A DNA stretch of 64,000 bases from Telmatospirillum siberiense. GTDB lineage: Bacteria; Pseudomonadota; Alphaproteobacteria; Rhodospirillales; Magnetospirillaceae. A model generated the notes under the pieces. The model was not told where the DNA came from. It searched no databases and saw only the letters and a list, made by a program, of their open reading frames with translations. Positions 52,508 to 57,552 of the stretch are shown in pieces (within the stretch, counting starts at the first letter, position 1; the number at the start of each line of letters is the position of its first letter). Both the position numbers and the translations under genes were made by a program. The stretch lies in assembly GCF_002845745.1 (NCBI RefSeq), contig NZ_PIUM01000008.1:1-64000 (forward strand), written 5' to 3'.

Positions 52508-52554
52508 CGATTAGACGGTAAGATGCGCATGGGCTTATGAGCTTGGCTCATGAA
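52508..52554 (-). promoter_or_regulatory. LysR-type 47-bp regulatory element, copy C
   Basis: Read on the minus strand it matches the two other copies (53590-53636, 57506-57552). It carries the dyad ATGAGC-N3-GCTCAT (52538-52552, containing ATGA-N7-TCAT), and the block CTTACCGTCTAATCGC. Located between lysR and the reductase gene, pointing at the latter. Confidence 0.85.
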
Positions 52555-52695
52555 TTCCGGGGCATTTCTCGGACATTCCCGACCGATGCCCGGCAAGGCA
52601 TTGCCTCTGCACCACCTATTGGCGCCGGAGCACCGCTGCTACGTCGATTACAAAAGGGGACTAGAAGCCTCCCTGTCAGACATTGCGTCTTCGCC

Positions 52696-53589
52696 TCACG
52701 CCCGGTAGCGCAGCGCATCGACCAGCAGCGTGAAGGCCGGTGAGGACTGGCGTCGGCTTGGGTAATAGAGATGATATCCCGGGAACGGCGGACACCAATC
52801 GGCCAAGACGCGGACGAGACGCCCGTCCGCAATATAAGCCCGCACATAGTCCTCAGGCAGATAAGCCAAACCGGATCCCGCCAGGGCGGCGTTCAGCCGC
52901 AGGGTGACATTGTTGAAGACCAATTGCCCATCGACATGCACATTCAGCTTGCGGTCGCCTTTTTCGAACTCCCAGGCGAACAATCCGCCATAGGTCGGCA
53001 GACGCAGATTGATGCAGTCGTGAGCGGTCAGATCTTGGGGCGTTTTCGGTGGCGGGCGCCTCGCGAAATAGGATGGCGCGCCAACGACCGCCACGCGCAT
53101 GTCCGGCCCGATCCGGACGGCAATCATATCCTTCGCAACCTGCTCGCCGATCCGAATGCCGGCGTCATAACGCTCGGCGACGATGTCGGTCAGTCCATAG
53201 TCGACGATGACCTCAACCTTGATATCGGGATAGTCCGGCAACAGTTTCGCCAGTTTCGGCCAGAGGATCGTATCGGCGGGGTGTTCGCCGGTGGTGATCC
53301 TGATGGTGCCGGCCGGTTTTTCGCGGAGTTCACTCAAGGCCGCGAGTTCTGCCTCGATCTCCTCGAAACGCGGACCCACGGTACGCAACAGGCGCTCGCC
53401 CGCGTCCGTCGGAGAGACGCTCCGCGTCGTGCGGGTCAGCAGCCGGAGACCGAGCCGCTCCTCGAGTCCACGGACAGTGTGACTCAGCGCCGATTGCGAC
53501 ACCCCGAGCTTGGCGGCCGCTTTGGTAAAACTCCGATCCTGCGCGACGGCAAGAAAGGCAATGAGGTCATTGACGTTTTCACGGGGCAT
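52696..53589 (-). CDS. LysR family transcriptional regulator
   Basis: A 297-residue LTTR. N-terminal winged helix-turn-helix (about 1-60: [56 protein letters not shown]) and a C-terminal effector domain of the type found beside aldo/keto reductase and SDR genes. The start codon adjoins a copy of the 47-bp element, consistent with autoregulation. Leftward, between the exported flavodoxin and the reductase operon. Effector unknown. The proposed regulon is inferred from the three element copies. Confidence 0.92.
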
Positions 53590-53636
53590 TGATGAATCCC
53601 ACTCATATGTCCATGCGGCTCTTACCGTCTAATCGC
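53590..53636 (+). promoter_or_regulatory. LysR-type 47-bp regulatory element, copy B
   Basis: Immediately next to the lysR start codon, read on the plus strand. Contains ATGA-N7-TCAT (53592-53606) and CTTACCGTCTAATCGCG. Matches copy A closely over about 66 bp, extending through ccgcacctgtta. Suited to autoregulation and to a rightward transcript toward the flavodoxin gene. Confidence 0.85.
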
Positions 53637-54103
53637 GTCCCACCGCACCTGTTAAGTTCTCGGCATCGCTCAAGCAACGCTTTCAAGACCGAGAGAGCCA
53701 TACCAAACGTACGGGAAACACCAAAATCAACTGAAAGCATAACTAACGATACATGGCTAAACAACAATTATTTTTCCACATTGAAATAATAATATTAAAT
53801 AATTAATGATATTCTATTTAATATTTTTTAGAAATTTTTTAACATTATGCCTTATTTAAATAATTTTTCACTGTAAAATATGATGATTTATTCACAAAAC
53901 CCAATGGAGAATAGACCATAAAATGGCTTTCTGTACTCCTATAGTTTTTTATTTAGCAACACAACCTCGTAACTCCTACGGTCTTCGGCACCATGTCCTC
54001 GCCTGAATTGCCATTTCTGGCACCAAGCGAAAGACCTGCCCCTATCGCGCACAGAACAATTTCTTCTTTAAAAAATTCGCCATAGCCACGTTTGGAGGAT
54101 CAG
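53637..54103. other. AT-rich region before flavodoxin
   Basis: 467 bp without a gene. From about 53745 to 53960 the DNA is markedly AT-rich (attatttttccacattgaaataataat...), unlike the surrounding genes. It may hold the flavodoxin promoter or a long leader. No stable structure or family recognised. Confidence 0.4.
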
Positions 54104-55478: not shown

Positions 55479-56726
55479 ATGAATAAGACAGGAAAATTGG
55501 ATATCCATAAGACGATGTCGGCATCGCCCATCGCCAAGGACGCCGGCAGGGTGGATCTTTTTGTTCTCGTTGTTCTCAGCGCTTTGATGGCCTTTGCATC
55601 CATCTCCACCGATACCTACCTTCCCGCCTTTCCGACCATCAGCGCCGCTTTCCAGGTCGATCCCGGTCGCATCCAGCTGACCCTTTCCAGCTATCTGATC
55701 GGCTTCAGCGTCGGGCAGTTGATTTGGGGGCCAATCGGCGACCGCTACGGTCGCCGGAAACCGATCGCTGTCGGGATGATCCTATTCATGATCGGTTCAG
55801 GCGGCTGTGCCTTGTCGGGCACGGCGGAGCAAATGATCGGCTGGCGAGTCATACAGGCGCTCGGCGCCTGTTCCGGACCGGTCCTCGCGCGGGCCATGGT
55901 GCGCGACCTTTACGCCCGCGAGCGTTCCGCGCAGATGCTGTCGACCTTGATGCTGGTCATGGGTGTGGCGCCGCTCCTGGGCCCCCTCCTCGGCGGCCAG
56001 ATCCTGGCACTCTGGTCCTGGCAAGCCATCTTCTGGTGCCTGGTGGGATTCGGTATCCTGGCTTTGATCGGGGTGCTCGCTCTGCCGGAAACACTGGCCG
56101 CTTCGCGACGCAGCGCGCAGGGGTTGGCGGAGGTCTGGATCAATTATCTGACGCTTGTCCGCAATCCGCGCCTGCTCGGTTACGCGGCCGCAGGCGGCTT
56201 CTATTACGGCGGCGCCTACGCCTACATCGCCGGCACGCCCTTCGCCTATATCGATTACTACCATGTGCCGCCTCAGGCTTACGGCCTTTTGTTCGGCCTG
56301 AACATCGTCGGAATGATGGGAGCGAATTTTCTGAATTCCAGACTGGTCATGCGTCTCGGATCGGACCGGATCTTCCACTTCGGGGCGGGAATCGCCGCTC
56401 TATCCGGGGTGATGACGGCCCTCGACGCGCGGTTCGGCTGGGGTGGCCTGGTCGGGCTGGTCCTCCCGCTGTTCTTCTTTTTCTCCGTCTCGGGATTCAT
56501 CGTCGCCAATTCGGTGGCCGGCGCCTTGGCGGCCTTTCCACGGAATGCCGGCGCCGCGTCGGCCGTGGTCGGCGCAACCCACTACGGATCCGGCATCTTT
56601 AGCGCGGCGGCGTTGGGCTGGTTCGCCGACGGAACGCCTTGGACGATGGGCTGGATTATTGGCGTCACGGGTCTTGGCAGCCTGGGGGCAGCCCTCTTCC
56701 TCGTTCGCCCTGTCAGAACGGAGTGA
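55479..56726 (+). CDS. MFS drug transporter, Bcr/CflA family
   Basis: A 415-residue inner-membrane exporter with 12 predicted helices. Motif A-like GDRYGRRKP, the family opening SALMAFASISTDTYLPAFP, and GVAPLLGPLLGGQIL identify the Bcr/CflA drug-resistance group. Start at ATG 55479 (MNKTGKLDIHKTM), 23 bp after the previous stop; an earlier frame overlaps the DUF4405 gene. Base composition returns to GC-rich here. The CMD gene follows 2 bp after its stop. Substrate unknown; export of an electrophile or drug fits the neighbourhood. Confidence 0.9.
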   Translation: MNKTGKLDIHKTMSASPIAKDAGRVDLFVLVVLSALMAFASISTDTYLPAFPTISAAFQVDPGRIQLTLSSYLIGFSVGQLIWGPIGDRYGRRKPIAVGMILFMIGSGGCALSGTAEQMIGWRVIQALGACSGPVLARAMVRDLYARERSAQMLSTLMLVMGVAPLLGPLLGGQILALWSWQAIFWCLVGFGILALIGVLALPETLAASRRSAQGLAEVWINYLTLVRNPRLLGYAAAGGFYYGGAYAYIAGTPFAYIDYYHVPPQAYGLLFGLNIVGMMGANFLNSRLVMRLGSDRIFHFGAGIAALSGVMTALDARFGWGGLVGLVLPLFFFFSVSGFIVANSVAGALAAFPRNAGAASAVVGATHYGSGIFSAAALGWFADGTPWTMGWIIGVTGLGSLGAALFLVRPVRTE

Positions 56727-56728
56727 CC

Positions 56729-57460
56729 ATGACAAGAAAAGCAGTCGCAGCCGCCCTGGTGGTGGGCATCGTCCTTTTCGCACTCGGCATGGCAACCACG
56801 ACAGGGGCGCAGGTCATGAAAAACGACGCGCTGAACGCCAAACAACAAGGGATCGTCACCATCGCCGCCTTTACCGCCAAGGGCGACCTGGACAAACTGA
56901 AAGGCGCCTTGAACGAAGGGTTGGACGGCGGGCTGACCGTCAATGAAATCAAAGAAATTCTCGTACAACTGTATGCCTACGCGGGGTTTCCGCGCAGCCT
57001 GAACGGGCTTGCTACCTTCATGGCGGTCATGGATGAACGGGAAAAAAGGGGCATCAAGGACGACCTTGGCCGGGAAGCAAGCCCCCTTCCCGCCGACAGG
57101 AGCCGACGCGAACTCGGCGAAGAAATTCAGACACGTCTGGTCGGCGCACCGGTCAAGGGACGCGTTATGGAATTCGCCCCCGCCATTGATGCCTTCTTGA
57201 AAGCCCACCTGTTCGGCGACATTTTCGGCCGCGACAATCTGGATTTCCAGAGCCGCGAGATCGCCACCATTTCGGCCCTGGCCAGCATGCAAGGCGTCGA
57301 CGCCCAGCTGCAATCTCACCTTAACGTCGGGCTCAATGTCGGACTGAGCGCGGCCCAGCTCAGAGGCCTCATATCGGTACTCGAAACAAAAGTCGGCAGA
57401 GACGAAGCCGATAACGCGGACACCGTTCTAAACAGGACATTGAGCGGCAGGGACAAATAA
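56729..57460 (+). CDS. Exported carboxymuconolactone decarboxylase-like protein, Cys-free
   Basis: A 243-residue CMD-family protein with a signal peptide (VAAALVVGIVLFALGMATTTGAQ, about 5-27), so likely periplasmic. Two CMD repeats are seen (GGLTVNEIKEILVQLYAYAGF; SALASMQGVDAQLQSHLNVGLN). There is no Cys anywhere in the protein; the Cys of the cytoplasmic paralog (GGCDAQVKGH) is replaced in MQGVDAQLQSH. Redox chemistry of the AhpD type is therefore excluded. Start 2 bp after the MFS stop with ACGGAG 8 bases upstream. Confidence 0.85.
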   Translation: MTRKAVAAALVVGIVLFALGMATTTGAQVMKNDALNAKQQGIVTIAAFTAKGDLDKLKGALNEGLDGGLTVNEIKEILVQLYAYAGFPRSLNGLATFMAVMDEREKRGIKDDLGREASPLPADRSRRELGEEIQTRLVGAPVKGRVMEFAPAIDAFLKAHLFGDIFGRDNLDFQSREIATISALASMQGVDAQLQSHLNVGLNVGLSAAQLRGLISVLETKVGRDEADNADTVLNRTLSGRDK

Positions 57461-57505
57461 AAATGCCCCCATCCCTTGCGGGAGCGTGTCGTAGCCGCAC
57501 GACAC

Positions 57506-57552
57506 TCATGAATCCATCTCATAAGTTCTTGCGGATTTGACCATCTAATCGC
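57506..57552 (+). promoter_or_regulatory. LysR-type 47-bp regulatory element, copy A
   Basis: 84 bp before the cupin start, same direction. Contains ATGA-N7-TCAT (57508-57522), TGCGGATTTGACC and CATCTAATCGCG; near-identical to copy B over about 66 bp. Presumed binding site of the LysR protein at 52696-53589. Confidence 0.85.

Follow-up and report, generated by a model that had tools for sequence, protein, structure and literature searches.

A conserved 68-bp element and its probable LysR-type regulator at a candidate detoxification locus of Telmatospirillum siberiense

The stretch of DNA analysed here, referred to as the window, comprises the first 64,000 nucleotides of contig NZ_PIUM01000008.1 from Telmatospirillum siberiense (contig C80 below). 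It contains a lysR gene whose product carries the N-terminal helix-turn-helix (HTH) and C-terminal substrate domains of LysR-type transcriptional regulators (LTTRs; Pfam), surrounded by predicted operons for aldo/keto reductases (AKR), short-chain dehydrogenases (SDR), carboxymuconolactone decarboxylase (CMD) family proteins, a cupin, and an efflux protein. LysR proteins form the largest family of bacterial regulators, and the binding site is known for few of them. A sequence-only reading of the window had described three gapless copies of a 47-bp element at this locus and took them to define a LysR regulon. The alignment was found to be real: scanning each copy against the window gave 37/47 identical positions for copies A and B, 36/47 for A and C, and 37/47 for B and C, and the motifs ATGA-N7-TCAT, TGCG, and CC[AG]TCTAATCGC are present in all three. 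By a binomial estimate, about 3e-4 pairs with at least 37/47 identities are expected in a sequence of window size, and the next-best window match of any copy is 28/47. The two plus-strand copies had been placed correctly (53590-53636 and 57506-57552), while the minus-strand copy was one base off, its true register being 52507-52553. The placement relative to genes also holds, with copy B at the lysR start, copy A facing the reductase-AKR-CMD-SDR genes, and copy C facing the cupin-AKR-SDR genes.

The regulon reading is supported by the analysis that follows, although its size was set too small: the locus holds seven copies rather than three, and the element is about 68 bp long and includes a -10-like hexamer. 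Each copy is very probably a full operator-promoter of the LysR encoded at 52696-53589, through which lysR would be turned down and the neighbouring detoxification operons would be turned on. Among the seven copies identity runs to about position 68, and positions 69-110 average 26%, which is background. A larger duplicated block was rejected for this reason.

The anatomy of the element was derived from 80 orthologous loci, the best 80 of at least 548 confirmed relatives, whose LysR proteins are 73-85% identical to that of the window. They come from Mesorhizobium, Rhizobium, Ensifer, Bradyrhizobium, Azospirillum, Dyella, Luteibacter, Burkholderia, and others. In 73 of the 80 (counted after the L006 lysR start was corrected by 6 bp) the element adjoins the lysR start codon exactly, on the opposite strand and directed away from the gene. 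A weight matrix built from the three window copies gave 110 matches in 110 LysR loci (L005-L114), 3 of which belong to the locus of the window (L085), whereas reversal of the same 1.61 Mb left none. A column profile computed from the upstream regions at the 80 loci shows the dyad at positions 3-17, CATGC at 23-27, TTnTAnCA at 31-38, and CTAATC at 40-45, followed by a weakly conserved 17-base spacer and CTAnAT at 63-68, with no conserved column beyond 68. The dyad, ATGA-N7-TCAT, contains the T-N11-A of LTTR operators inside an imperfect inverted repeat; its half-site columns are 85-96% conserved, and the pairs 3/17, 4/16, 5/15, and 6/14 are complementary in 79-87 of 89 rows.

LTTRs typically have a recognition site near -65 and a second site near -35 of the transcript start. 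In the present element about 55 bp separate CTAAAT from the middle of the dyad, so that with 63-68 taken as the -10 hexamer the dyad falls near -65 and CTAATC near -35. The -10 role of CTAAAT and the resulting promoter layout, both suggested by this spacing, would fit the classical arrangement. As expected of an LTTR, lysR is divergent from a putative target with which it shares a control region: the nearest divergent gene at the 80 loci is a cupin gene in 51, an AKR gene in 15, an SDR gene in 1, and another or none found in 13. In the window another gene group separates lysR from the cupin genes.

A model of the full element, R1, was built without any window sequence from the sites of 66 of the 80 relatives (13 were dropped for a score below 25 or for being out of register, and 1 was a duplicate). 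Applied to the 6.2-Mb genome it found 10 places at E<=10. Seven are on C80, at 52488(-), 53590(+), 57506(+), 65799(-), 71701(-), 72059(-), and 72325(+), within one 20-kb span and no more than 19 kb from the window lysR; three of these are in the window and four past its end. The remaining three, at 29804(-), 34302(+), and 22563(-) of contig C5, are weaker (E 0.08 for the last); none is farther than 8 kb from a paralogous lysR (C5 30018-30905, 70% identical). Scatter of the motif over many unrelated promoters had been named beforehand as the outcome that would speak against a regulon; no such scatter was seen among the 150 of 551 first-look candidates that were scored, all 10 matches being near these two lysR genes.

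Across 61 genomes, an R1 match was found in 8 of the 10 that hold a LysR at least 63% identical to that of the window, versus 1 of the 51 others (Fisher 1.3e-7). More than one match in the fetched flanks was seen at 5/80 loci (L039, L047, L052, L066, L084), and none of the 60 other genomes has more than two. Because most relatives show one copy and no other genome exceeds two, the window genome is an expanded case of a plain form with a single copy between lysR and a divergent cupin/AKR operon. In a same-genus genome (G001, contig C65) a site was observed at the start of an apparently broken second lysR.

Further evidence comes from the protein. Positions 5 and 15 of the dyad covary, both with each other and with residue 37 in the recognition helix. 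Among 107 rows, 91 have His37, of which 80 have both G5 and C15, 10 have one of them, and 1 (L095, a distant protein) has neither; all 15 Gln37 rows have neither, and the single Tyr37 row (L076) has G5 only. When L111, which has no element, is left out, 14/14 Gln rows have neither base and 90/91 His rows have at least one, with the Tyr row in neither group. These counts take the bases adjoining the start whatever they are, with the place shifted for L035, L039, and L055, and they include rows with poor, displaced, or no clear sites (L052, L057, L069, L083, L110, L146, L148, L153), some of whose bases agree by chance; two Gln rows, L070 and L136, have one clear half-site only. The raw Fisher value for residue 37 against the dyad, 1.6e-16, ignores relatedness and is therefore not to be quoted alone. 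Relatedness was considered in a tree of the effector domain with 75 of the 107 rows, leaving out 10 long-branch, divergent, paralogous, or fragment rows and 22 near-copies. On the best tree residue 37 changes 7 times; four independent pairs stand on well supported branches, and in 4/4 the dyad shifts the same way. A single Gln clade received p-AU 0.025. Taken together, the joint presence of element and protein in the genomes compared and the covariation of the dyad with residue 37 tie the element to this LysR, the covariation being the strongest link.

The element probably has a second use at lysR. In the lysR direction, the dyad spacer of the lysR-adjoining sites is rich in purines and can pair with the 16S tail, which places the likely ribosome-binding site of lysR between the two operator half-sites. 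Anti-Shine-Dalgarno pairing of -4 kcal/mol or lower, computed for the 12-mer that begins 4 nt before the start codon, was found in 64% of 73 lysR-adjoining sites (the 80 loci minus 8, plus copy B) versus 27% of 15 other sites (Mann-Whitney p 0.005), the latter including one site that actually adjoins a second lysR (L084 16473-16540) and one displaced before its own lysR (L057). At the remaining offsets tried, pairing was found in 1-38% of sites. Moreover, the TTnTA block reads TATAAT-like towards lysR and may be the lysR -10, a resemblance that is weak in copy B.

From this, a mechanism can be proposed. The recognition helix of LysR would dock on the ATGA-N7-TCAT dyad, where residue 37 would read positions 5 and 15, and the protein would also contact the TGC...CTAATC block about 30 bp further along. 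That this LysR binds the element is very probable in our view, and that it activates the outward operons is probable. At lysR itself the element covers the leader in the opposite orientation, and because its dyad spacer contains the likely lysR Shine-Dalgarno sequence, bound LysR would be expected to lower lysR expression and at the same time to serve the divergent promoter; such self-repression is favoured with less assurance than activation. An inducer would switch LysR to activation, most likely a reactive carbonyl, a quinone, or a similar electrophile, as the gene set comprises AKR, SDR, alcohol dehydrogenase, CMD, flavodoxin, and efflux proteins. An electrophile as the signal is nonetheless only a tentative suggestion. 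Two effector-domain cysteines are near-invariant (C192 in 106/106 and C266 in 103/106 proteins); their conservation permits thiol sensing, which makes them possible redox or electrophile sensors. Activation would reach the reductase-AKR-CMD-SDR genes from copy A, the cupin-AKR-SDR genes from copy C, and perhaps the flavodoxin-DUF4405-MFS-CMD genes from copy B, and past the window the DUF362-LarC-LarE-LarB-cupin genes, a zinc alcohol dehydrogenase, a 42-residue lipoprotein-like open reading frame (ORF), and a resistance-nodulation-division (RND) pump. We lean slightly towards a wider hypothesis, in which His37/Gln37 is a natural specificity switch that has flipped several times with both half-sites of the autoregulatory operator moving along (G5/C15 to T or A), and in which a compact shared operator, combining dyad, divergent promoter, and lysR Shine-Dalgarno sequence, has been copied to seven promoters here, turning a single-operon switch into a detoxification island.

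The same sites could instead be LysR-type operators whose main regulator is another LysR with overlapping specificity. The C5 paralogue, which retains His37 and sits near the three weaker R1 matches, is one such protein, and 84 candidates for this LysR came up in a first search of the genome. We consider this unlikely, since the seven stronger sites are near the window lysR while those near the paralogue are weaker and partial, and since it is the orthologue of the window lysR that the element adjoins in the 73 loci. Less likely still is that the block is a promoter and leader kept for transcription and translation alone, with no LysR operator. The block does hold an outward -10-like hexamer, the TATAAT-like block towards lysR, and the likely Shine-Dalgarno sequence. 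However, a promoter alone leaves unexplained both the symmetric dyad, whose positions 5 and 15 vary together and with residue 37, and the lack of any match in 50/51 genomes without this LysR. An RNA element was dropped as a candidate, as an Rfam search of 52300-57800 returned no family at the gathering threshold.

Finally, the copies could be an interspersed repeat, either a repetitive extragenic palindrome (REP)-like sequence or a small mobile element, lying between genes by chance. On its own, the core ATGA-N7-TCAT has 88 occurrences genome-wide, and 33 of these carry the 15-base core of a genuine but unrelated interspersed hairpin. Some copying of the element within this genome is indeed likely, because copy B, copy C, and the copy at 65.8 kb of C80 share 73-80% of the otherwise weakly conserved spacer. 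Yet among the genome-scan candidates scored the full element is found only near the two lysR genes, it is directed at the downstream gene, it is kept at one place across many genera, its likeness stops at the -10 hexamer, and the hairpin flanks differ from those of the element at the places examined. The repeat explanation is largely refuted by the genome scan and is scarcely credible. It follows from the shared hairpin core that specificity resides only in the full element.

Several observations weigh against the proposed regulon of this LysR. The four well supported pairs give a sign test p of 0.125, and an earlier, quicker tree had only one pair on well supported branches. The conservation figures cover near relatives only, the 80 loci being the closest of those confirmed, and in the whole-genome R1 scan 150 of the 551 first-look candidates received a score, which means that weak sites may have escaped it. 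On C5, the two better sites have no left half-site and the third is a partial match (26 bp, 26 model positions). Two genomes hold the LysR without an R1 match, one with lysR cut by a contig edge (G010) and one with a weak site (G020); in G004 the R1 match is away from both lysR genes, and no element accompanies the second of these (L111, 63% identical, Gln); and one genome without this LysR (G048) has a match at E 0.005. A sigma-70 scan gave 4 matches versus 3.8 expected in the region, none at the elements. About 447 bp, including an AT-rich stretch, separate copy B from the flavodoxin gene, and the flavodoxin genes are therefore a weak target. This stretch (53740-53960) is by eye markedly AT-rich, unlike its surroundings, and may mark an insertion that parted lysR from an ancestral cupin operon.

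The kind of system is already known, as this is an LTTR regulon with the classical layout. The operators of BenM, CatM, and CbnR are alike in having a T-N11-A dyad with a 7-base spacer, further adjacent sites, and recognition by helix 3 (part of PMC6628147). They differ in the half-site, which in BenM and CatM forms the dyad ATAC-N7-GTAT (PMC6628147) and is ATGA/TCAT here, and in the protein, where Arg34 of BenM touches DNA and confers specificity (PMC6628147), while His or Gln stands at its place here. The correspondence of BenM Arg34 to His37 is based on equal distance to a conserved glutamate (Glu40 of BenM, PMC12609908; Glu43 here), not on a computed alignment. Further differences are the lysR Shine-Dalgarno sequence within the dyad and the seven promoters at one locus. 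The nearest named NCBIfam model for the window LysR is that of E. coli YafC (NF040888); identity with YafC was rejected because the protein scores 135.6 bits against a cut-off of 470. YafC is not mentioned in the available part of PMC8249747, and no other search for its site was made. In P. aeruginosa, RclR-RclX similarly places a regulator beside a CMD/AhpD-like gene in hypochlorous acid defence (part of PMC7950407). A reading of RclR/RcsA as a LysR-CMD chlorine system was dropped, since that part of PMC7950407 does not call RclR a LysR protein; the analogy is one of function only. Among the matches listed from open-access PMC literature, no description of the regulator or its 68-bp site was found. 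Four features are new in our view: the conserved site in its full extent, the proposed switch at residue 37, the placing of a Shine-Dalgarno sequence inside the operator, and the expansion to seven promoters.

Here a regulator, its complete site, its target set, and a candidate specificity residue can all be named from sequence, for a LysR that occurs in many Proteobacteria. If true, the His/Gln switch would mean that a single amino acid swap alters half-site preference. Moreover, through the expanded regulon a set of genes that otherwise have no assignment (DUF362 with LarB/C/E, DUF4405, CMD, and cupins resembling mandelonitrile lyase) comes under a single predicted control, a hint that they may work together in dealing with reactive small molecules. 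The predicted targets and the parts of the element are listed in Table 1.

Table 1. Element copies and genes of the lysR locus. Positions are those of the window unless a contig or locus is named; L125 is a fetched locus that continues past the window end.
Feature	Position	Strand	Basis or remark
Copy A, 68-bp element	52486..52553	-	Upstream of minus-strand genes 52344-48939; R1 40.2 bits, E 1.6e-9 over 52488-52553
Copy B, full 68-bp element	53590..53657	+	Adjoins lysR ATG (53587-53589), directed away from lysR; R1 53.9 bits, E 8.2e-14 (whole genome)
Copy C, 68-bp element	57506..57573	+	Upstream of cupin-AKR-SDR genes; R1 56.1 bits, E 1.7e-14, best match of the genome
Copy B dyad ATGA-N7-TCAT	53592..53606	+	Column conservation; minus strand of spacer carries likely lysR Shine-Dalgarno (anti-Shine-Dalgarno pairing across sites)
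Copy B CTAATC block	53629..53634	+	Positions 40-45, 81-92% conserved in 80 loci; putative activation-site/-35 role, from position
Copy B -10-like hexamer TTAAGT	53652..53657	+	Positions 63-68, consensus CTAAAT, T64/A65/T68 80-90% conserved; putative role
lysR, 297 aa, recognition helix SQSALSHT, His37	52696..53589	-	Pfam HTH_1 1.3e-22, LysR_substrate 9.6e-37
F420_oxidored-type Rossmann reductase, first gene behind copy A	51619..52344	-	Pfam PF03807 2.9e-13
AKR1, aldo/keto reductase	50618..51559	-	Pfam PF00248 in two stretches
CMD1, carboxymuconolactone decarboxylase family	49831..50586	-	Pfam PF02627 6.2e-32
SDR1, short-chain dehydrogenase	48939..49784	-	Pfam PF00106 1.9e-44; NCBIfam NF005065 398 bits
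Flavodoxin_4 protein, Tat-like leader (by eye), first gene on outward strand of copy B	54104..54739	+	Pfam PF12682 5.1e-26
DUF4405 membrane protein	54754..55455	+	Pfam PF14358 4.9e-7
Bcr/CflA-type MFS efflux protein	55479..56726	+	NCBIfam TIGR00710 306 bits, cut-off 200.9
CMD2, carboxymuconolactone decarboxylase family, leader peptide (by eye)	56729..57460	+	Pfam PF02627 7e-20
Cupin1, (R)-mandelonitrile lyase-type, first gene behind copy C	57636..58046	+	NCBIfam NF049940 202 bits, cut-off 140
AKR2, aldo/keto reductase	58078..59067	+	tblastn relatives in 66/80 LysR loci
SDR2, short-chain dehydrogenase	59204..59944	+	tblastn relatives (>=28% identity), anywhere in fetched flanks, in 35/80 LysR loci
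DUF362 (Tat-like leader), then LarC, LarE, LarB, secreted cupin	L125:1586-5688 = C80:61586-65688		Partly in window
Zinc alcohol dehydrogenase behind element	L125:10927-11718 = C80:70927-71718		
42-aa lipoprotein-like ORF, directly behind element C80:72059-72125	L125:11849-11974	-	By eye

The genes that face elements past the window are the last three entries of Table 1 and an RND pump with its adaptor. LarC, LarE, and LarB beside DUF362 each exceed their NCBIfam cut-off. DUF362 and the LarA family (DUF2088) belong to one Pfam clan (part of PMC11770544), and on this ground the DUF362 protein beside the lar genes may use the nickel-pincer cofactor. DUF362 with lar genes as a conserved pair was not borne out: a tblastn search (1e-5) of six related DUF362 loci, covering flanks that reached 1.5 kb at most, did not recover LarB, LarC, or LarE from any of them, and one contained a cupin fragment.

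A search by the core motif was dropped as a site finder in favour of R1, because the hairpin repeat contains ATGA-N7-TCAT and would mislead a motif-only scan. This REP-like hairpin reads CCAAG-TCTCGATGAG-GATGA-CTCATCGAGA-CTTGG, with its flanks observed at five places (L002, L003, L004, window 39111, and L126:11269). As CCAAGTCTCGATGAG-GATGA-CTCATCGAGACTTGG and variants of it, the repeat lies at window 39111-39125, C80:108903, C5:31269, C2:118287, and others.

AKR1 has a Tat-like leader and about 85 barrel residues fewer than AKR2, with the frame kept; by BLASTP, its residues 64-200 correspond to 5-138 of AKR2 and 202-296 to 224-318. It is either a decayed copy or an odd variant. Similarly, the element-linked zinc alcohol dehydrogenase is without about 110 residues (178-287 of its neighbour L125:7504-8550, the nucleotide-binding part), again with the frame kept. 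It is curious to find two such internal in-frame losses at a single locus, and they may be due to assembly error. Near the paralogous lysR on C5 are genes for a secreted cyclophilin-like protein and an MFS protein, and by eye a 2Fe-2S small subunit lies behind the weakest R1 match.

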